IMG/VR virus record: IMGVR_UViG_3300033997_000547 | Coordinates: 1 to 23,054 of that record | Length of the DNA stretch: 23,054 nucleotides | Source of the DNA: a virus | Direction: 5' to 3' (one strand) | Shown: in pieces, positions 9,477 through 22,597 of the stretch | How the letters are laid out: each line of letters starts with the position of its first letter | Position numbering within the stretch: position 1 is the stretch's first letter | Program-made: the position numbers and the translations under genes | Notes under the pieces: model-generated | The model's database searches: none | Told to the model about the DNA's origin: nothing | What the model saw: the letters and a program-made list of their open reading frames with translations, nothing else

Positions 9477-9755
9477 CTAGTTCCCCGACGTGGTAGGCGA
9501 GCTGGCCTGTGGCTTCAACTCGTGCTGGTTGGCGACGGCTTTGCAGATCTGCTCCCACGTCGACTGCTCCAAGAACCGCCAATGCCTGGAATTTCCCCTA
9601 GATCGCCTATTCGCTCCAGCCGCATGATCGAATTCTCGTAAAAGATCAGGGCCAGCCGCCTCGATGTGCTTGGCGCAGATGAACGGCCGATCGTCTCGGT
9701 TCGGACGGCCGGTCCGGCGGCAGTCGAGCACGATGCAGCAGGGGTGCTGGGTCAC
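9477..9755 (-). CDS. Small Cys/His protein, possible zinc binding
   Basis: The 92-residue product starts at GTG 9755, which overlaps the TGA of the DUF1376-like gene as GTGA. Its N-terminal third has 'CCIVLDC' (6-12) and 'FICAKHI' (26-32), a C-x(4)-C...C-x2-H arrangement that could bind zinc. The middle is Arg-rich ('NRRSRGNSRHWRF') and the C-terminus (SSPTTSGN) looks disordered. Similar tiny Cys/His proteins are common beside phage replication genes but have no defined role. Its coupling to the replication gene suggests co-translation. Confidence 0.68.
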   Translation of the reverse strand: MTQHPCCIVLDCRRTGRPNRDDRPFICAKHIEAAGPDLLREFDHAAGANRRSRGNSRHWRFLEQSTWEQICKAVANQHELKPQASSPTTSGN

Positions 9756-11032
9756 GCGGCGGCCTCCATGGCTTCGTGGACGAGGCCGACGCCGAGGCGC
9801 TTGAACAGCGCGCCGCATTGGGCCTTGAGCCGCTGGTGGATCGTCGCGTTGCGGCAGACGACGGCGCGTTCGGGCAGGTCGCGCCAGGCGCAGACGTCGA
9901 GGTAGCTGATGGCGAACTTCTCGCCAGCCTCGGCGTCTCCGCCCCGGCTGTCGGCGATGTGCGCCACCACGTCGGCGCGGATGTCCTCAGGCCCGGCCCA
10001 AGCGCTGGGGCCGCGATCGACGCCATGGTCGCCCTGCTTGGCGTAGGCCTTCCAGTCGCCGCGTCGCAGCCAGTTCAGGATGCTTGGCACGCCCCTGCCC
10101 TCCCTCGCCTTGGCCGCGCTGGACCGCGAGAACGCCTTGACCGCCTCGATCAGTTGCTCCTCGCCGCCGGCCTCAGCCGCCACGTCTGGCCAGGCGGCCT
10201 CAGCCTGGGCGAACTTGGTCTGGCCTATCGCCGGATATGCGTCGAAGGCCTCCTGGAAGCGATTTCCATGTTCCGCGTCGCCCCCCTCCAAGGGGGGTAG
10301 GGGGGATAATATTCTATTCTCTTCTTTTGCGTCCGCACCGCGTTCGCCCTGCGTTGGCATTGCGGACGCAGTGCGTTCGCCATGAGATCGCACCCCGTCG
10401 CCTTCGGTATCGCCCTGCGTTCGCGCAGCGGGCGCGGTGCGTCCGTCAGAGGGAACTGACGGCGCGTCAGGTTCCGTTTTGGTTCCGGACGATTCGGCGT
10501 CCGTTGAGCCCCAGATCGCCAAGGCTTCGACCACCGCGGGCTTGTTGAGGACGCTGGCCTGAGGGTTCAGGGCGCTCAGGCGAATGGCGAGATCGGCCAT
10601 CTGGGCCGTCAGGTCACGACCACCGCTCAGGGTCTTTCCCTGGCTGGCGTTGCCCTTGGCGCCGGCGGCCTTCAGGGTCAGACGCTCAAGGAGCTGCTCC
10701 AGGGCCTTCTCGGCCACGACGGGGTGATACCACCGCCCATCGGCGCAGAGGACGAAGCCGCTCATCACCTCGTCCTTGATCTTGAGCCACTCGCCCATGG
10801 CCCGGCTAAACCCAGCCATGCCGGCCAGCTCGCGGTCCTTGTTGTCGAGGCTGGCGGCTGGGGTCTGCTGCCAGGAGGCGCACCAGAGAAGGACAGAGGC
10901 GCGGAACACCTCGGGGTTCTCGTGATTGGCCACGCCGCTGTCGCGCAGGCGCTGGACGTCGAGCAGCATGCTCGGCAGGTGGGCGACGCAGCTATCCGGA
11001 GGCGTCATGGGCTTGGGCAGGTGAGCGGTCAT
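9752..11032 (-). CDS. DUF1376-like phage replication protein
   Basis: This 426-residue protein has an N-terminal DUF1376-like domain (about 15-130): 'VFRASVLLWCASWQQTPAASL' and 'CADGRWYHPVVAEKALEQL' are characteristic. DUF1376 proteins occupy the initiator position in many phages and are thought to act in replication start or helicase loading. A long Thr/Gly/Glu-rich linker (about 175-260) leads to a helical C-terminal domain with 'FDAYP.I.QTKFAQAEAAWPDV' and 'VPSILNWLRRGDWKAY', found in phage O-like proteins. It begins directly after the DnaB stop. The linker DNA contains repeats and an AT-rich run that may be an origin. Replicative function is inferred from domain and context. Confidence 0.82.
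   Translation of the reverse strand: MTAHLPKPMTPPDSCVAHLPSMLLDVQRLRDSGVANHENPEVFRASVLLWCASWQQTPAASLDNKDRELAGMAGFSRAMGEWLKIKDEVMSGFVLCADGRWYHPVVAEKALEQLLERLTLKAAGAKGNASQGKTLSGGRDLTAQMADLAIRLSALNPQASVLNKPAVVEALAIWGSTDAESSGTKTEPDAPSVPSDGRTAPAARTQGDTEGDGVRSHGERTASAMPTQGERGADAKEENRILSPLPPLEGGDAEHGNRFQEAFDAYPAIGQTKFAQAEAAWPDVAAEAGGEEQLIEAVKAFSRSSAAKAREGRGVPSILNWLRRGDWKAYAKQGDHGVDRGPSAWAGPEDIRADVVAHIADSRGGDAEAGEKFAISYLDVCAWRDLPERAVVCRNATIHQRLKAQCGALFKRLGVGLVHEAMEAAA
10281..10384. other. Candidate replication origin inside the DUF1376-like gene
   Basis: Two 18-base repeats matching at 15 positions start at 10334 and 10367 (33 bases apart; core GCGTTCGCC), with related GCGTT-containing copies near 10350 and 10417. 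Next to them is a 23-base run, 10306-10328, with 19 A or T in GC-rich surroundings, and a C6/G6 inverted repeat at 10281-10297. Iterons plus an AT-rich run within the initiator gene is the lambda O/ori plan. It might instead be only a low-complexity protein linker. Confidence 0.4.
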
Positions 11033-12541
11033 CTATGCGTCTCCGGTCTGATAGCTGCGGGTGGTGGTGGCGTTGTCGCGGGCCTGGGCGAAGTACTGCT
11101 GGCGGGCGAGGTTGCCGAACTGGGTCAGGTCGTCGTTGAACGACAGGCGGACGGTCCCGATCGGGCCGTGGCGTTGCTTGGCGATGATCAGCTCGGCGAG
11201 GCCCTGGACCTTGTCCATCTCCTCAAGCCAGGCCTGATGTTCTGGCGTGCCTTCGCGAGGTTCGGCGCGGCCGAGGTAGTAGGCTTCGCGGAACACGAAC
11301 CACACCATGTCGGCGTCCTGCTCGATCGAACCCGATTCACGAAGGTCCGAGAGCTGGGGCCGCTTGTCGTCGCGCTGCTCGACCTGGCGGGACAGCTGGG
11401 ACAGGGCGATCACCGGGACGCCCAGCTCCTTGGCCATGGCCTTCAGCGCCATGGTGACCATCGAGACTTCCTGGACGCGGTTGGCGACGCTGGCCTGCTG
11501 GCCCGTCGTGACCAGCTGCAGGTAGTCCACCACGATGAGGTCGAGGCCCGTCTGGCGCTTCTGGCGCCGGGCCCGGGCGAACATCTTGGCGATGCTGATG
11601 CCGCCGGTGTGGTCGATGTAGAGCGGGGCTTCCTGAAGCTCGATCGCCGCGTCGCGGACCCGGCCGAACTCGGTCGCTTCGATATCGCCCTTGCGCATGC
11701 GGTCGGAGCTGACGCCGGCGGCGCTGGCCAGGATCCGCAGCGTCAGCTGCTCGCCGCTCATCTCCAGGCTGAAGAACATCACCCGCCCGCCCGCGACGGT
11801 CTTGTGCGTGCCGTCCGGCTGGACCTCGTAGGCGTAACGCTTGGCGATGTTGAAGGCGATATTGGTCGCCAGGGCGGTCTTACCCATCGACGGGCGGCCG
11901 GCCAGGATGATCAAGTCAGGGCTCTGCAGCCCGCCGATCTTCTGATCCAGGTCGATCAGGTCCGTGGCGATGCCCGCCATGCCGCCTTCGCGGCTGAAGG
12001 CCTCGGCGGCCATCTGCAGGGCCGACGTGAGGTAGTGGGCGAATGGGCGCGGCCCGCTCTCCGGGGTCCCGGCCTCGGCCAAGGCGTAGAGCTTCTGCTC
12101 CGCCGCCTCGATCTGGTCGCCCGGACCAATATCGGTGTTTTTCGCCGTCGCCGCGATGTCGGCGCTGACGCTGATCAGGCCGCGACGCAGGGCCAGCTCG
12201 TGCAGGACCTTGGCGTATTCCTGAGCGTAGGACGCGGGCGGCGCGTTGGCGACTAGGCCGGCCAGGTACTGGACGCCGTCCGCCTCGAGGTCGACCAGGG
12301 CGGGGTCGTTCTTCAGCTGGCTGGCCAGCAGCGCGGGTTCGGCCAGGCCGCCCTTGCGGATCTGCTTTTCGATCGCGTCGAACAGGCGGCCGTGGAACGG
12401 CTCGAAGAAGGTCGAGGCCTTGACCTGCGGCACGCGCTCATAGGCGGCGTTGTCGAGCAGCAGGATGCCCAGCAGGGCCATCTCGGCGTCGAGGTTATGG
12501 GGAAGGCCGTCGGCCTCGAACAGGGCACTACCGTCGGCCAC
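11033..12541 (-). CDS. dnaB: Replicative DNA helicase DnaB
   Basis: This 502-residue hexameric helicase would unwind the phage replication fork. The N-terminal DnaB domain ('PHNLDAEMALLGILLLD') covers about 13-115; the RecA-like ATPase has Walker A 'GRPSMGKTALA' (215-225), 'FFSLEMSGEQL', Walker B 'LIVVDYLQLV' (335-344), 'ALSQLSRQVEQR' and the Arg-rich 'LRESGSIEQDAD' to 'FNDDLTQF' end. All expected motifs are present; it carries a short extra loop at about 236-252 (VQPDGTHKTVAGG). The start is GTG 12541 behind a strong GGAGGA. It overlaps the preceding gene by 14 bases and abuts the DUF1376-like gene, so helicase and probable loader or initiator are co-expressed. Confidence 0.95.
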   Translation of the reverse strand: MADGSALFEADGLPHNLDAEMALLGILLLDNAAYERVPQVKASTFFEPFHGRLFDAIEKQIRKGGLAEPALLASQLKNDPALVDLEADGVQYLAGLVANAPPASYAQEYAKVLHELALRRGLISVSADIAATAKNTDIGPGDQIEAAEQKLYALAEAGTPESGPRPFAHYLTSALQMAAEAFSREGGMAGIATDLIDLDQKIGGLQSPDLIILAGRPSMGKTALATNIAFNIAKRYAYEVQPDGTHKTVAGGRVMFFSLEMSGEQLTLRILASAAGVSSDRMRKGDIEATEFGRVRDAAIELQEAPLYIDHTGGISIAKMFARARRQKRQTGLDLIVVDYLQLVTTGQQASVANRVQEVSMVTMALKAMAKELGVPVIALSQLSRQVEQRDDKRPQLSDLRESGSIEQDADMVWFVFREAYYLGRAEPREGTPEHQAWLEEMDKVQGLAELIIAKQRHGPIGTVRLSFNDDLTQFGNLARQQYFAQARDNATTTRSYQTGDA

Positions 12542-14210: not shown

Positions 14211-14587
14211 CGGCGCTTCTGGCTCCGCTTGAAGTTGCGACGGCTCCTGGTCAGCCAGGGCTTTTCGGTCTGCATGCGCTGAGGACGAAGTGGGGCTTTG
14301 ATCTCCGCCGGCCATCGCGCCTGTGCGGTCAGAAGGCGATCTAGCGTCTCGAAGTCGTCCTTGCTGATGACGCCGTGACCCGTGAATGTGTCCGGCGTCG
14401 AGAACAGCTGGCAGATCTCGGCGATCTGCTCGCGGCGGGTCTTCAGGATACCGACACCCACGATCATCGGGTTGGCGCTAAAGACCATCACCGCCTCGTC
14501 GGAGGTGGTGGACAGGTCCACCCCTACGATCTCCAGCTCGGCCCCATCGACGAAGAGCCGGCCAGTGCCGAAGTGGTAACCGCTCAT
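14207..14587 (-). CDS. 126-residue protein with basic tail, unknown
   Basis: The protein starts MSGYHFGTGRLFVDGAELEI, a beta-rich opening, followed by 'MVFSANPMIVGVGILKTRREQ' and a helical segment. The last 25 residues (from about 'PLRPQRMQTEK' to 'NFKRSQKRR') are strongly basic and may bind nucleic acid. It starts at the end of the primase gene with an ATGA overlap. No family is recognised; position suggests a replication accessory. Confidence 0.7.
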   Translation of the reverse strand: MSGYHFGTGRLFVDGAELEIVGVDLSTTSDEAVMVFSANPMIVGVGILKTRREQIAEICQLFSTPDTFTGHGVISKDDFETLDRLLTAQARWPAEIKAPLRPQRMQTEKPWLTRSRRNFKRSQKRR

Positions 14588-16194
14588 GCCGCCCTCCCCT
14601 TGGCGTTGTGCTGCGCCTCGCGGATCCGATCCTCGAGGGCGGCGCGGTCGGCCTTCAGGCGGGCGATGTCGGCAATCGCGCCTGGTGCGGTGATGTCGGC
14701 GGCCAGGCCTGCGATGGAGCGATCCAGCTCCTCGCGGGTCATCAGCAGGTCGGCCAGCAGCGCCTCCGCCTCGCTGAGCCCTGGGCGGTCGAGGAGCACG
14801 TAGAGCCGGTCCTTGCCGAGGCGCAGCCCGTTGGCGGCGGCCTTCAGCGCGGCCGAGGCGCCGAGCGTGACGGGGGGCACGGCGCGGTTGCGCTCGTAGT
14901 GGTTCCTGGCCTGCGGAGCGGCGAACATCGCTTCGAACCGGCCCAGCAGATCCCGGCGATAGGATTCTGACAGATCGCGGTCCTTGATCGCGCCAGCTGC
15001 GGCCTTCAGGCGGACGCGCAGCCCGGTGCGAGCCTCTGGCGTCCCGAGGCGCTCGGCGTGCAGCTCCATGGACCAGAGCGCGTCGACCATCGGCATGCTG
15101 TCGCGCATTTGGGCGACCACCGCCTCGGCGCCCTGCTCGCGCAGCACGTCGTCAGGATCCTTGCCGCCCTTCGGCGTGGCGAAGCGGAAGGTGCGCGTGG
15201 CGCCGAGCAGCGGCATGGCGCGCTCGACTGTCCGGCGCGCCGCGTTCTGGCCGGCCTTGTCACCGTCGAAACACAGGGTCGGCTCGGGGTGGATGCGCCA
15301 GAGCAGCTCCATCTGCTCTTCGCCCAAGGCCGTACCCATCGCCGCGACGGCCGCAACGCCGGCGCGCTGGCAGGCGATGACGTCCATATAGCCTTCGACC
15401 ACCGCCAGGACGGCTTCGCGCGGGTCGGACGGCAGCAGGCGGCGCGCCTCGGGCAGGCCGTACAGGACCCGGCCCTTATGGAAGACGGGCGAATCCGGGC
15501 CGTTCAAGTACTTCGCCCGGGCCGCCGGATCGAGCGCCCGCCCGCCGAAGCTGATCACCCGGCCTCGGCCATCGGTGATGGGGAACATCACGCGGTTACG
15601 GAAGCGGTCGTACGGCGCGCCGCCGTCTTCCGGGGCGATCAGCAGGCCAGCCTCGACAAGCTCGCCCGGCTTCGCGCCCTTGGCGACGAGGTAATCCTTC
15701 AGGGCGGTGCGGCTCTCCGGCGCATAGCCGATGCGGAACCGGCCCCACTCGGTCGACGGGAAGCCCCGGCCGCTCAGGTAGCGTTGGGCGTCGCCGCCTA
15801 CGGGGCGGGTCAGGTTCGCCTGGTACCAAGCCGCCGCCAGCTCCAGCCAGTCCAGCAGGCCGCCGCGGCGCCTGTCTTCGGCGGCGTCGCGCGGATCCTG
15901 GGTCGGGATCGACATACCCGCCTCGGCGGCCAGGCGCTCGACCGCCTCGGCGAAGGTCAGGCGCTCGGTCTCCTGCAGGAACGCAATGACGTCGCCATGC
16001 TTGCCGCTGCTGAAGCAGTGGTAGAAGCCCTTGTCGTCGTTGACGAAGAACGACGGGCTCTTCTCCTTGGCGAAGGGCGAAAGGCCTGCGTATTCACGGC
16101 CCTGGCGGCGCAACTTCACCGTCTTGCCGATCAGGTCCGAGGGCCGGATGCGGACCTTCAGCTCTTCCAGGAAGCTGTCTGGGAAGCGGCTCAT
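14584..16194 (-). CDS. dnaG: DNA primase DnaG with altered zinc site
   Basis: This 536-residue primase would lay RNA primers for phage replication. The N-terminal CHC2 zinc fold is present in shape ('YAGLSPFAKEKSPSFFV', 'GFYHCFSSGKHGD'), but the ligands Cys, His, Cys, Cys are Ser39, Ala42, Cys60 and Ser63, so zinc binding is probably lost. The RNA polymerase domain follows ('RIGYAP', 'RNRVMFPITD..GRVISFGGRAL'), then TOPRIM with 'EGYMDV' (267-272) and 'DGDKAG' (310-315). The C-terminal helicase-binding part (about 430-536) is short and helical. ATG 16194 overlaps the upstream stop; it is coupled to the next gene. Confidence 0.94.
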   Translation of the reverse strand: MSRFPDSFLEELKVRIRPSDLIGKTVKLRRQGREYAGLSPFAKEKSPSFFVNDDKGFYHCFSSGKHGDVIAFLQETERLTFAEAVERLAAEAGMSIPTQDPRDAAEDRRRGGLLDWLELAAAWYQANLTRPVGGDAQRYLSGRGFPSTEWGRFRIGYAPESRTALKDYLVAKGAKPGELVEAGLLIAPEDGGAPYDRFRNRVMFPITDGRGRVISFGGRALDPAARAKYLNGPDSPVFHKGRVLYGLPEARRLLPSDPREAVLAVVEGYMDVIACQRAGVAAVAAMGTALGEEQMELLWRIHPEPTLCFDGDKAGQNAARRTVERAMPLLGATRTFRFATPKGGKDPDDVLREQGAEAVVAQMRDSMPMVDALWSMELHAERLGTPEARTGLRVRLKAAAGAIKDRDLSESYRRDLLGRFEAMFAAPQARNHYERNRAVPPVTLGASAALKAAANGLRLGKDRLYVLLDRPGLSEAEALLADLLMTREELDRSIAGLAADITAPGAIADIARLKADRAALEDRIREAQHNAKGRAA

Positions 16195-16397
16195 GCGACG
16201 CTCCAGGTGTATTCGCCGCAACGGTCCTTAGGATCGGTCACGGGCCATTCGGCCCTCACATCCGATCCGATAACGACGGCGGTTGGCGGGTAGCGCCGGC
16301 ATTGCAGTTCGCCGCGCTTCAGTCCTGTGTCGTGGGAGTGGGCGCACGTCCTGCAACTGGCCGGGGCAGTCGGGAACTTTATTGGAGGCAGCTTCAT
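16191..16397 (-). CDS. Small four-Cys protein
   Basis: This 68-residue protein has Cys15, Cys18, Cys33 and Cys60 ('CRTCAHSH', 'LQCRRYPP', 'DRCGEY'), enough for one zinc or iron-sulfur site. 'C.tC.hs......g...CrryPP' is a common pattern in tiny phage proteins of unknown role. It overlaps the nuclease gene upstream and dnaG downstream by four bases each, bridging the modification and replication modules. Its link to the primase, which lacks its own zinc ligands, is only positional. Confidence 0.8.
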   Translation of the reverse strand: MKLPPIKFPTAPASCRTCAHSHDTGLKRGELQCRRYPPTAVVIGSDVRAEWPVTDPKDRCGEYTWSVA

Positions 16398-17095: not shown

Positions 17096-19612
17096 CTAGG
17101 CCGCCTCCCCCACGTCGTTCCGGCCGGCGTCCAGGACGTCGAACAGGGTCGGCTGGGTCACCTCGAACTCGGCGGCCGTCAGGTAGCGGAGGCTGTCCTT
17201 GAAGTACTGCTCGTTCAGCTCCGAGCCGTAGCCGCGACGGCCCAAGGTGACGGCGCGGACCGGAACGGTGCCAATACCGGCGAACGGGTCATAGACCAGG
17301 TCGCCCTTGGCCGAGCAGAACCGGATGACACGGTCGACGATGTCGATCTGCAGGGGGCAGACGTGCTTCTCGCGGTTGCCCAGGGACTGCTCGTTGTTGA
17401 GCGTCAGCACCCGGACGATGTCGGTCCAGACGACGCCCGTCGGCGATTCCAGGGCCAGGGCGGCGAAGGTCTTCGGCAGGGCGCCGCGCTCGGCCAGGGC
17501 TTCGGCCAGGCGAACGTGGTCTTCGTGGTCATAGACCACCCGGCCCGACTGCTCTCGGAAGGCGCGCTGCAGCTGCTTGGGTGGCAGGGCGGCCAGCTCG
17601 TCGACGGTCAGGTACCGATCACCACCGCTGCGCCAGTAGGAGGCGGCGTCGATCTGCCACCGCGCCAGGCTGTACTCGTCCAGGCCCTTGGTCACCGGAT
17701 CGTCGGCATAGCCGCGCGAAAGGTCGGTCTGGGCCTTGCGGAAGAACAGCATGTACTCCGGCGAGCCGGAGCCCATCTTCGTGGCATCCTTGCGCATCTC
17801 GGAGTAGCCGAGGCGATAGGTCTGGTTGTTCTCCCGAACCACGTCCGTCTCGATCGGGCGGACCGCCAGAAGGTGGAAGCCGTGCTTGCGGTAGTGGGCA
17901 ATGCAGTCGGCGTGGAACGGCTCGACGGTCGGGAAGCTCAGGCCCGTGACGTTGCCGAACAGGATGCGGTCCTTGACGTGCACGGCCAGGATCCGGCCGG
18001 GCTTCAGGATCCGGAGCAGCTCCGGCGTCAGGAAGTCTAGCTGGTCGAAGAACGCGCCGTTGTCGCGGTTGTGGCCGAAGTCATTGTAGCTCTCGCAGTA
18101 CTCGTACTGCGTCCCGAACGGGATAGAGGTCAGGATCAGGCCGACGTGGTCGCTGGGCATGCGACGGGCCTCGTCGACGCAGTCGTTGTTGACCGCGGTC
18201 CAGCGCTCGCCGCTTTCCTGGCGCCGGGTGACGCCGATGCTCCGGCGCATGGTCTCGACCGCCGCGATCCGGCCCAAGCCGTACTTGCGGATGATCTCGG
18301 TCATGCGCTCGCGAAGCTCGATGTCGCGGGCCCACTTCTCCTCGAGGTTCCGGCGCTGCTCGCGCTCGGTCTCGGCGTAGACGATGTCGATCACCACAGG
18401 ATGGGCCTGGCCGAAGCGCTGGATCCGGTGGATGGCCTGAATGAAGTCGCGGAACTTCGGCCCGATGCCGGCGAAGATGGCCCGGTGGCAGTGGCGCTGC
18501 AGGTTACCCCCCGCGCCGAGCATCACCGGCTTTGCGGCAAGGTCGCTCAAAACGCCGTTCTTGAAGTCGCGCAGGATCTGGTCGCGTTCGTCCAGGTCCT
18601 GGGTCCCGTAGATGGCCTTGGCCTGAGGCAGCGCCGCGGCGATCGCCTCGCGCTCCGCCTCGAGGTCGTGCCAGATGATGAAGTGGTTCTCCGGCTCGGC
18701 CTCGCGCAGCTCCTTGACCTTGGCGACGCGGGTCGGGAGCGTGTCGCGCTTCTCGCGGGCCGCCTCCTGCAGGCTCACCGCGGCGTCGCGCAGGAGCTTC
18801 ATCTGGCCGCGCGCGTCGCAACCGGCGTCGGTGATGTCCGCCTGGACCTCGTGCCAGCGGACCTCCAGCTCGGGGAGGACGTAGCCCTCGTCGCTGTAGC
18901 CAAGGTCCGAGGGCTTTTGAAGGAAGATCGCCCAGGTCGAGGCCCAGAGCCAGAATTCGTCTTCCTTGTGGGGGTAGAGGGTCAGGTCGCCCGCCTTCTC
19001 GGCGTTGCGTTGGAAGAAGCGCGTCAGGGCCTGGCCTGTGTCCATGGCGCCGAGGAAGCCGGCGTAGTGGATCAGCTCCTTGTAACGGTTCGGCGAGGGC
19101 GTGGCCGTCGCGACGTAGCGGAACGGCACCGGCTCGAACGCCGGCATGAACTCCTGGAAGGTCTTGGAGCCGTAGCTCCGGAGCACGTCGGCCTCGTCCA
19201 GGCTGGCGAAGATGAAGCGGCTGGGCGTGATCTTGCCCTCGCGCACGCTCTCGTAGTTCGTCAGATGCATTTTGCCCGGCTGGATCTCGGCGTCGGTCTG
19301 GATGAAGACCAGCTCGATCCCCATCGTGGCCGCGTCGTCGAAGAACTCCTGCCGCACGCCCAGCGGGGCGACGATCAGGCCCTCGCCGGCATGACGCATC
19401 AGGACCTGGCGGCCGGTCTCCAGCTGCATCGACGTCTTGTGCAGTCCGTAGCTGGTGAAGTAGGCGCGGCAGCCGCCGGCGAGGCCCCACTGGACGATCG
19501 CCTTGCAGTGCGGCTTGAGCCACGGGTGCAGCTCGTCGATCTCGACATGGAAGCCGGTCGTCGGCGCCGCGATCGCCTTGTCTTCCAGGAACTTCAGATA
19601 GGCGTCGGTCAC
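17096..19612 (-). CDS. SNF2-like helicase / DNA methyltransferase fusion
   Basis: This 838-residue protein joins two enzymes. Residues 1 to about 420 are an SF2/SNF2-type ATPase: motif I 'SYGLHKTS' (54-61, His where Gly is usual), motif II 'LDEAD' (138-142), motif III 'ATATPSP' and motif VI 'HRIQRFGQ' (395-402). Residues about 465-805 are a beta-class amino-methyltransferase: motif IV 'TSIPF' (495-499), a long target-recognition region with 'VVRENNQTYRLGYSE', and C-terminal SAM motif 'DPFAGIGT' (775-782). That motif order fits N6-adenine or N4-cytosine methylation. Similar fusions occur in other phages, probably for self-protection or antirestriction. The start is GTG 19612 in a GTGA overlap. 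Confidence 0.9.
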   Translation of the reverse strand: MTDAYLKFLEDKAIAAPTTGFHVEIDELHPWLKPHCKAIVQWGLAGGCRAYFTSYGLHKTSMQLETGRQVLMRHAGEGLIVAPLGVRQEFFDDAATMGIELVFIQTDAEIQPGKMHLTNYESVREGKITPSRFIFASLDEADVLRSYGSKTFQEFMPAFEPVPFRYVATATPSPNRYKELIHYAGFLGAMDTGQALTRFFQRNAEKAGDLTLYPHKEDEFWLWASTWAIFLQKPSDLGYSDEGYVLPELEVRWHEVQADITDAGCDARGQMKLLRDAAVSLQEAAREKRDTLPTRVAKVKELREAEPENHFIIWHDLEAEREAIAAALPQAKAIYGTQDLDERDQILRDFKNGVLSDLAAKPVMLGAGGNLQRHCHRAIFAGIGPKFRDFIQAIHRIQRFGQAHPVVIDIVYAETEREQRRNLEEKWARDIELRERMTEIIRKYGLGRIAAVETMRRSIGVTRRQESGERWTAVNNDCVDEARRMPSDHVGLILTSIPFGTQYEYCESYNDFGHNRDNGAFFDQLDFLTPELLRILKPGRILAVHVKDRILFGNVTGLSFPTVEPFHADCIAHYRKHGFHLLAVRPIETDVVRENNQTYRLGYSEMRKDATKMGSGSPEYMLFFRKAQTDLSRGYADDPVTKGLDEYSLARWQIDAASYWRSGGDRYLTVDELAALPPKQLQRAFREQSGRVVYDHEDHVRLAEALAERGALPKTFAALALESPTGVVWTDIVRVLTLNNEQSLGNREKHVCPLQIDIVDRVIRFCSAKGDLVYDPFAGIGTVPVRAVTLGRRGYGSELNEQYFKDSLRYLTAAEFEVTQPTLFDVLDAGRNDVGEAA

Positions 19613-19914
19613 GGGCGCACCTCCTGGCCGGCGTCGGCGCCTTGGAATGGGAACGGAGGTGGCGACGGCGGCGCCATGGCGCTGTTCTCGCGCGCGGCCC
19701 AGGTCAGCAGCACCGTGTTCATGCCGAGCGCGCCGCGGTACGGCGGCAGCTCGTAGCAGACGTAGGCGGCGAAGCCGGCTGGGGTCAGTTCGACCCGCTG
19801 ATGCGGCTTGAACCGGGCGAATTCGGTGTCGAGGCGGGCCAGCACCACCGCCCCGTCGGCAGTGACGCAGTGCCGGATCGCCTCCATGGGCAGGGTCCAG
19901 GCCGGGCCGATCAT
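19609..19914 (-). CDS. 101-residue protein between two methyltransferases
   Basis: The protein starts MIGPAWTLPMEAIRHCVTAD and carries 'RLDTEFARFKPHQRVELTPAGFAAYVCYELPPY', a mixed fold with no catalytic motif, then a Pro-rich disordered tail (APPSPPPFPF). It overlaps the truncated C5 methyltransferase and the helicase-methyltransferase by four bases each. It sits where the missing C-terminal half of the C5 enzyme would be expected, but I do not see convincing motif IX or X. Function unknown. Confidence 0.7.
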   Translation of the reverse strand: MIGPAWTLPMEAIRHCVTADGAVVLARLDTEFARFKPHQRVELTPAGFAAYVCYELPPYRGALGMNTVLLTWAARENSAMAPPSPPPFPFQGADAGQEVRP

Positions 19915-20750
19915 GCCGCGATCCTTTCCTGTTCGGGCGCGTAGTCGGCCGCGATCAGCTCGCGCCATTCGACCTTGTAGCCGAAGTGCTCCAGCTTCCC
20001 GACCCAGAGCCGGAAGATAAGGCCCTTGTGGCGCGGATCCGGCTGGCCAGCCTTGTAGAGCCGCCCCTTGCGGCGGCCGTCGCGGTCCTGGCCGTGCAGT
20101 TCGGCGGCGGCGTCGACCGCAGGGCGGATGGCGCTCTGCAGGTCGGCCTCGGTCGGGTCGATCGTGTCGAAGAGCGAGAGCTGCTCGGCCGCAACCAGCT
20201 TGTCAGCCTGCTCGGCTAGGGTGGCGATCTCGTCGTCGAAGATGAAGGTGTCTTCCTCGAGGAGCGGACCCCAGTCCTGGAATTCTTCGACGTTCTCCAG
20301 GGCGATGACACGCGGCCGGACCTGGGCGGCCCAGCGAACCACGATCCATGCGAGCGACCGGATCTTCTTCTCGCGCGGCTTGCCGCCGCGGGCCTTCGAG
20401 TGGTGCTTGCAGTCGGGCGAGGCCCAGAGCAGGCCCACCTTGCGCTCACCACCGCACGGGCGACGGAATTCGGCGATCGCCTCCTTGGGGCAGACCTCGT
20501 TGACGTCGGCGCAGTAGTGCCGGGTCGTGGGATGGTTCGCGGCGTGCAGCGCGACCGCTTCCTTGTCGTGATTGATCGCGATGTCCGGGTGACGGCCCGT
20601 GGCCATCAGGATCGCGGTCGATGCGCCGCCGCCGCCGGCGAACAGATCGACGATCAGCTCGTCGTTGTCGTTGGCGTGGGGCGGGGTCCAGGGAGCCTTG
20701 GCATGGCCCAGATCTTCCAGGACCTGGCGGGCAGCAGCTGCAGCGCTCAT
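19911..20750 (-). CDS. C5 cytosine methyltransferase, truncated at motif VIII
   Basis: This 279-residue protein has the N-terminal half of a DNA cytosine-5 methyltransferase: SAM motif I 'DLFAGGGG' (35-42), the catalytic Cys in 'SPDC' (111-114, motif IV, followed by 'KHHSKARGGKP') and motif VI 'ENVEEF' (152-157). A charged insert of about 70 residues (163-235) follows, then 'LEHFGYKVEWRELIAADY'. Related phage enzymes continue with 'GAPT.RKR' and about 200 further residues with the target-recognition domain and motifs IX and X; here the chain ends 'APEQERIAA'. It may be inactive, act with a partner, or have another role. ATGA overlaps occur at both ends. Confidence 0.86.
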   Translation of the reverse strand: MSAAAAARQVLEDLGHAKAPWTPPHANDNDELIVDLFAGGGGASTAILMATGRHPDIAINHDKEAVALHAANHPTTRHYCADVNEVCPKEAIAEFRRPCGGERKVGLLWASPDCKHHSKARGGKPREKKIRSLAWIVVRWAAQVRPRVIALENVEEFQDWGPLLEEDTFIFDDEIATLAEQADKLVAAEQLSLFDTIDPTEADLQSAIRPAVDAAAELHGQDRDGRRKGRLYKAGQPDPRHKGLIFRLWVGKLEHFGYKVEWRELIAADYAPEQERIAA

Positions 20751-21570: not shown

Positions 21571-21866
21571 CGAGCCCTCCTCTTGGCGTTCTGCTGGATC
21601 TGCTCGGCTGCGCTGAAGGCCTGGCCCGACAGGCTGGCCAGGTGCGTGCCGGTCGCGGAGGGGCCGCAGGCCTGGGCCGCGTTCATCGCGCTGGCGGTGC
21701 ACAACTCGCGCGCCAGGTCCTGGCGCTCGTTCGGGTCGATGACGTCGCGCATCACGCCCGCCACCGTGTCGAGGGCGCGTTCGCGCATCCGGCCGCGCCT
21801 GGCGCTACGCTCGCGATCGCCGTCGATGCGGCTCACGACGTGGGTCTCGCGACGGTTCAGGCCCAT
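21564..21866 (-). CDS. 100-residue basic protein, unknown
   Basis: The protein starts MGLNRRETHVVSRIDGDRER and its first third is Arg-rich; the remainder is helical and Ala-rich ('ARELCTASAMNAAQACG', 'LASLSGQAFSAAEQIQQNA') with a final 'KRRARC'. ATG 21866 overlaps the GcrA-like gene by ten bases; the in-frame ATG at 22046 lies well inside that gene and is rejected. Downstream it supplies the ribosome binding site of the NlpC/P60-like gene. No family is recognised. Confidence 0.68.
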   Translation of the reverse strand: MGLNRRETHVVSRIDGDRERSARRGRMRERALDTVAGVMRDVIDPNERQDLARELCTASAMNAAQACGPSATGTHLASLSGQAFSAAEQIQQNAKRRARC

Positions 21867-22597
21867 TGCCGCATCGCCCCCGTGCGACGGTCGATCTCGC
21901 CGCGCGCCTTGCGCTTCTGCTGGGTGTTCGGCGAGGTCTGGCCCTTGCGGGTATGATGCTCGCACCACTGGCGGCCTCCGGACCGGGGCGACACCGGATC
22001 GCAGCAGGCCATCAGCTCGCCAGCGATCGTGATCGGCCAAGAGCATTGGGCGCGCCCGCGCTCCATGAACGGCTGGGGGTTCTGCGGCTTAAAGGCTTCA
22101 GGCTTCATCGTGACCATCGGCGCGGCGGGAGACGTGGCCGGCGCGGTGGCGACGACCTTCAGAACAGGCGGCTTGGCGGGCTTGGGCGCAGGGGCCGGTT
22201 TCGGAGCGGGCGCGGGCTTCCGCTGGCGGGGGCGACCCTGCCGCGGGGCGGTTTCCGAGTTGAACTGGGCGAGCTCGCGGGCCCGGCTGCGGTTCGTGTC
22301 GTTCAGCGCCTCGCTGCGCTTCAGGCCGAGGCGATCGACCTTCCCGAGGACAGCGTTACGCGTGACGCCGAGCTGCATGGCGATCTGGGACGCCGTGTCG
22401 CCAGCGAGCCAGCGCTGCTTGAGGACGTCGACATCCGCGTCCGGCCAGCCGCCGGCTCGGGTGCGGCTGACCTCCTGGTACTTGTTGACCGTGTGCCGGG
22501 ACACCCGGAGACGGTCCATCACGTCTTCTTGGCTGACGCCCTGGCGCCGGAGCGAGACGATCTTATCGACGACGGTCGGGTCGATTGGGCTGCCCAT
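21857..22597 (-). CDS. GcrA-like cell-cycle regulator with extra N-terminal HTH
   Basis: GcrA is an alphaproteobacterial sigma70-binding activator of promoters with methylated GANTC sites. This 246-residue protein has its two hallmarks: the DNA-binding module 'WPDADVDVLKQRWLAGDTAS' (51 onward) with 'QLGVTRNAVLGKVDRLGLKR', and a C-terminal 'CSWPI' ... 'CEHH' sigma-interacting module near 185-218. They are joined by a long Pro/Ala/Lys linker ('PAPAPKPAPAPKP'). Unlike GcrA, it has about 45 added N-terminal residues forming a second helix-turn-helix ('QGVSQEDVMDRLRVSRHTVN'). GGAGGT precedes ATG 22597. Phage control of host or phage promoters is inferred. Confidence 0.85.
   Translation of the reverse strand: MGSPIDPTVVDKIVSLRRQGVSQEDVMDRLRVSRHTVNKYQEVSRTRAGGWPDADVDVLKQRWLAGDTASQIAMQLGVTRNAVLGKVDRLGLKRSEALNDTNRSRARELAQFNSETAPRQGRPRQRKPAPAPKPAPAPKPAKPPVLKVVATAPATSPAAPMVTMKPEAFKPQNPQPFMERGRAQCSWPITIAGELMACCDPVSPRSGGRQWCEHHTRKGQTSPNTQQKRKARGEIDRRTGAMRQWA

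Follow-up and report, generated by a model that had tools for sequence, protein, structure and literature searches.

A probable lambda-like replication origin in the linker codons of a phage initiator gene outside the lambda O family

We analyzed a 23,054-nucleotide stretch of viral DNA (positions 1 to 23,054 of IMG/VR record IMGVR_UViG_3300033997_000547; hereafter, the window) that carries the replication genes and candidate origin elements listed in Table 1. Among the genes scanned, which were part of the window's genes, no P-type or DnaC-type helicase loader was seen; dnaB lies upstream. The window also encodes a GcrA-like cell-cycle regulator (21857-22597, minus strand; Pfam GcrA, E = 8.5e-20) and two DNA methylases (17096-19612 and 19911-20750), the first of which (minus strand; 838 aa) has its N6/N4 DNA methylase domain in the C-terminal half. 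Positions 1-126 hold 10.5 perfect copies of a 12-mer, TTCGGGCTGGCC, that run off the contig end and either are coding or mark a point where assembly stopped.

Table 1. Candidate origin elements, initiator domains and neighbouring replication genes in the window
Feature	Position	Strand	Remarks
Replication initiator gene	9752..11032	-	426 aa; PHROG 22470 replication protein, DUF1376-like N-domain
C-terminal domain, aa 340-426	9755..10015	-	moderately resembles DnaA domain I; presumed DnaB contact (model)
Disordered linker codons, aa 187-255	10268..10474	-	contain the entire putative origin
Hairpin element, CCCCCCTACCCCCCTTGGAGGGGGG	10281..10305	-	C6-TA-C6-TTGGA-G6; after the A-rich run in gene sense
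A-rich run, sense strand, AAAAGAAGAGAATAGAATATTAT	10306..10328	-	presumed unwinding element
11 tandem 11-bp iterons, consensus GTGCGAACGCA	10328..10448	-	near-palindrome TGCG-NN-CGCA
N-terminal ordered domain, aa 1-181	10490..11032	-	weakly winged-helix RepA-like; presumed iteron binder (model)
Phage dnaB-like replicative helicase gene	11033..12541	-	directly upstream of initiator gene
Phage DnaG-like primase gene	14584..16221	-	near initiator gene

The initiator matched the PHROG 22470 'replication protein' profile over aa 5-133 (E = 1e-31) and, at 24.0 bits and thus under the gathering cut-off of 30.1, Pfam DUF1376 (E = 5e-5). Its hmmscan matches were limited to DUF1376 and PHROGs 22470, 3992, 10293 and 9474, with no O family among them; judging by these profiles, the protein is not a member of the lambda O/P22 gp18 family. 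An AlphaFold model made with 45 relatives (mean pLDDT 82) had ordered ends and a disordered segment at aa 187-255, and the C-terminal 87 residues reached a pLDDT of 90 when folded alone. Fold matches of the initiator domains were middling (Z 4.5-6.2, Foldseek E >0.1). The N-terminal domain weakly resembled the winged helices of plasmid RepA proteins (4pql, Z 5.2; 5kbj, Z 4.8; 4pt7, Z 4.6; 4pta, Z 4.5), with unrelated entries at similar Z, and the top three structural matches of the C-terminus were all DnaA domain I (H. pylori, Z 6.1; E. coli, Z 5.8; B. subtilis, Z 5.0; Foldseek E 0.5), followed by an unrelated match at Z 4.8. A Foldseek search with the whole model returned no significant PDB match, and a PDB sequence search returned nothing useful. 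E. coli DnaA binds DnaB through its domain I (PMC6127211), so the C-terminal end of the initiator may recruit the helicase.

A preliminary description of this DNA had reported two 18-mers, matching at 15 of 18 positions and 33 bases apart, together with partial copies containing GCGTT. The 18-mers were found at 10334 and 10367, and the partial copies proved to be real and to form, as an 11-unit tandem array of period 11, a more regular structure than had been claimed. In gene sense the array, which TRF also detected, runs head to tail from 10448 to 10328 without spacers; its consensus was built from the window phage and the closest relative, L012. Autocorrelation in the region was 0.41-0.49 at lags of 11, 22, 33, 44, 55 and 66 and ~0.27 at other lags. 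The period-11 score was matched by none of 500 synonymous-codon shuffles within the gene (z 4.0; the closest relative gave z 5.5), period 11 was the only one from 5 to 16 to stand out in such shuffles of the initiator gene, and periods 11 and 22 both lay above all synonymous shuffles. Since 11 cannot be divided by three, the codon phase changes from one unit to the next (2, 1, 0 and so on), and the units keep their sequence across all of these phases; periods of 11 and 22 would not arise from a repeat in the protein by itself. The 11-nt period passes through every codon phase and is lost on synonymous shuffling; it is thus a DNA-level signal. A scan of the window revealed no second comparable array with an A-rich run.

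The 23-base run with 19 A/T described earlier is present where the array ends, and it is the lowest-GC 21-mer and 23-mer of the 23-kb window. The nine codons across it contain 8 G+C as against 15.6 expected from window codon usage, a value as low as which was not reached in any of 200,000 random synonymous draws, and they include the rarest Arg, Ile and Leu codons (AGA, 2/477; ATA, 4/258; TTA, 2/473 in the genes counted). The reported C6/G6 inverted repeat was likewise recovered, with C6 at 10281-10286, G6 at 10292-10297 and a second G6 at 10300-10305. Its single-strand fold energy was ordinary relative to dinucleotide shuffles (z -0.3) because these shuffles preserve the C- and G-runs; support for the hairpin comes from comparison with relatives. 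Array, A-rich run and hairpin together encode aa 195-252, so that all three lie within the codons of the predicted disordered linker, in agreement with the earlier placement in the linker of an initiator gene adjoining dnaB.

Protein-only searches with the window initiator gave no matches in viral or genome contigs, and relatives were recovered via the neighbouring dnaB and via an alignment-based search. The closest, L012 (IMGVR_UViG_3300044294_000577; 65% aa identity), has 14 iteron units, the same A-rich run and the hairpin CCCCCCTACCCCCCTTGCCGGGGGG; two others (L013 and L014, ~41% identity) have decayed 11-mers and have kept the A-rich run and hairpin. The wider family set comprised 124 non-redundant homologues found by protein similarity, in which AT minima were sought only between 330 and 120 nt ahead of the end of the gene. 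The 150 nt before the minimum contained 13.6 repeated 8-mers versus 2.2 expected, with 55 genes exceeding all 60 synonymous shuffles, and a perfect hairpin of at least 6 bp lay 0-30 nt after the minimum in 38 genes versus 8.7 expected from synonymous shuffles. The AT minimum was under all synonymous shuffles in just 28 of 155 family genes; AT-richness in most relatives is therefore set by amino-acid choice. In many homologues (L003, L006 and L207-L211 among them), GQGEGQG- or GTGTGT-coding 6-nt repeats stand directly before the A-rich run in place of the 11-mers.

In a subgroup, mostly from Burkholderiales and phages, the hairpin reads CCGTTCC-TGAC-GGAACGG, CCGTACC-TATC-GGTACGG, CCGTTAC-TGAC-GTAACGG or CCGTAGC-TAAC-GCTACGG. 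In this CCGTNNC-(4)-GNNACGG form, all positions were paired in 14/14 sequences (100%, as against at most 48% for slid controls), and two pairs showed compensatory changes while the encoded peptides differed. Several homologues (L205, L212, L246 and others) have a second inverted repeat, of the GGCGGC-NNN-GCCGCC type, after this covarying hairpin. Among Caulobacteraceae prophage homologues (the family of Phenylobacterium kunshanense), most complete genes had the same three-part order, with repeats different from those of the window (CCCACTGGGA, GTCCCACGGGACA or GTCAC dyads); in two members of this set (L381 and L388) the order was absent around the AT minimum. The preliminary description had held that an absence of repeats from related genes would speak against the origin; the relatives compared do bear repeats in the corresponding position, mostly with a different sequence, as expected if initiator and iterons co-evolve. 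The GC-skew analysis that it had proposed pointed to no origin consistently, either in the window or in three relatives.

To place the hairpin in a wider context, viral contigs were scanned with the pattern CCCCCNAMCCCCCNTN{2,5}GGGGG, which gave at least 111 distinct sites. Several of these were outside long frames, and the C-rich element is therefore not confined to initiator genes. Among the matches listed, 59 non-redundant sites lay in frames of at least 180 aa with proline codons in frame, after exclusion by hand of L260, L264, L292, L320 and L368, whose sites resembled intergenic or long-palindrome contexts. Palindromes of greater length, of the CCCCCAACCCCCCCTAAAGGGGGGTTGGGG type (L353 and L357, with similar ones in L264, L292, L320 and L368), were apparently distinct from the initiator-gene hairpin. 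Profile matches of 53 of the listed proteins included DUF1376 (14) and HTH_36 (11), with fewer DUF6291, DnaT, DnaD_N, Lin1244_N and RP-C, and their PHROGs, again among the matches listed, were mainly primosomal, replication initiation and O-like families; ten proteins annotated singly, chosen by eye and not randomly, were all replication proteins (10/10). Among these same listed matches, the element lay near residue 170 of about 308 and was read in the three frames 29, 17 and 13 times, and the 24 nt before it had 34% GC versus 59% gene-wide (lower in 56/58), with 48% A and 18% T.

Phage initiator genes whose N-domains differ have C6-N2-C6-loop-G6 in common, read in any of the three frames, and this recurrence appears to be new; within the open-licence papers searched, nothing described the C-rich element or tied DUF1376 proteins to origins. 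We suggest tentatively, and with rather less than even confidence, that this motif just after an A-rich run may be a portable origin element of many phages with differing initiators and hosts. Since the initiators differ and the element does not, its reader would be something common, such as host helicase-loading, priming or SSB machinery, or else its action would lie in its fold alone, perhaps as a triplex or through paired G-tracts.

Three initiators found without the motif, beside related dnaB genes (L017, L018 and L020), have other N-domains and nevertheless keep the element or a close variant. The N-domain of L017 is unrelated to that of the window initiator (E 0.96) while its C-domain is homologous (3e-21) and its C-rich element similar, and the repeats of L020, GGGGAACCGGT, are again spaced at 11 bp. 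From this pattern, the C-rich element appears to be the point at which an N-domain is swapped along with its iterons. The hairpin might accordingly be mainly a recombination joint for swapping initiator N-domains and iterons and not origin machinery, a reading that concerns the hairpin only, that is compatible with array and A-rich run as an origin, and that draws on L017 and on the element being common to initiators of several N-domain families. Unrelated hairpins with compensatory changes at the same spot in other relatives would be needless for a joint, however, and we regard this alternative as unlikely, although the hairpin could serve in both roles together.

The lambda record has, inside gene O, four annotated iterons, then an A-rich sense strand (CAAAAGACACTATTACAAAAGAAAAAAGAAAAGATTATTC) and then a 12-bp inverted repeat (GTCAGAGAATTC/GAATCCTCTGAC). 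Order and strand asymmetry in the window match this record, which bears out the earlier claim of a lambda-like layout: as in lambda and Stx phages, the putative origin lies between two domains inside the initiator gene and combines near-inverted-repeat iterons, an A-rich sense strand and an inverted repeat, the C6/G6 repeat sitting where the lambda ori has its own, a correspondence that the preliminary description had not drawn. The two differ in that the window has eleven 11-bp units without spacers as against four 18-bp iterons, an inverted repeat of the form C6-TA-C6-loop-G6 as against GTCAGAGAATTC/GAATCCTCTGAC, an initiator that is not an O homologue, and a phage dnaB as neighbour where lambda has P. 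Lambdoid origins, those of Stx phages included, are described as iterons plus an AT-rich tract in the available part of PMC7466680, which does not discuss lambda's 12-bp inverted repeat. Judged from sequence, the window gene is thus outside the lambda O family, yet has a lambda-type origin layout.

Iteron plasmid origins of the RK2, F and P1 type likewise have helix-phased repeats beside an AT-rich opening element (PMC5043065). The window shares this arrangement, and the N-domain of its initiator weakly resembles RepA winged helices. In plasmids the iterons are usually located outside rep, whereas those of the window are coding. PHROG 22470/DUF1376 proteins of Pseudomonas and Burkholderia phages (phi297, Magia) have a homologous N-domain, linker repeats, an A-rich run and often a hairpin, but their repeats are mostly other sequences than those of the window (hexamer GQGEGQ-coding tracts and dyads); no origin report for such phage proteins was found in the open-licence literature.

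On these grounds we consider it highly probable that the linker of the initiator gene is the replication origin of this phage, with a lambda-like layout. The evidence consists of the DNA-level repeats, the rare-codon A-rich run, the hairpin, and their order and its conservation in relatives, to which are added the same order in lambda, the disordered linker, the weakly RepA-like and moderately DnaA-domain-I-like ends of the protein, and the proximity of dnaB and primase. In the mechanism we propose, the N-domain of the gene's own protein would bind and wrap the tandem 11-bp sites, which are spaced by one helical turn; the strain of wrapping would open the A-rich run alongside, the C-rich inverted repeat on its far side would fold out and bound or hold the bubble, and the DnaA-domain-I-like C-terminal part would bring the phage DnaB encoded next door.

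The array could instead be an operator or centromere-like site (for autoregulation, silencing or partition) with the origin elsewhere, given that many kinds of regulator bind tandem near-palindromes and that the window is only a fragment, so that another origin could lie outside it; but in many phages the array goes together with an A-rich run and a hairpin inside an initiator gene beside dnaB, no comparable array with an A-rich run was seen elsewhere in the window and no partition gene was noted nearby, and we judge this reading very improbable. Least credible is the reading in which the DNA has no function and the linker is just disordered, repetitive protein, arising from an 11-residue peptide repeat or from replication slippage, since, although the linker is predicted to be disordered and the protein does have an 11-residue repeat (RTASAMPTQGE...), periods that are not multiples of three (11 and 22) beat all synonymous shuffles, the unit sequence is constant in all codon phases, the A-rich run is built from rare codons, hairpins change in a compensatory manner despite different peptides and all three frames are used in reading the C-rich element.

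An origin in this linker would extend the lambda plan, in which the codons of the initiator's hinge contain the origin, to a large and mostly unannotated group of phage initiators, and it would supply three sequence signs (repeats, A-rich run and hairpin) by which such origins can be found. The coding region would be under two simultaneous constraints, with the peptide as a by-product, as illustrated by the reading of the same C-rich element in all three frames. Furthermore, the role of lambda's little-studied inverted repeat would become testable by comparison, and the portable C-rich element, if true, would locate origins by sequence alone in many unstudied phages.
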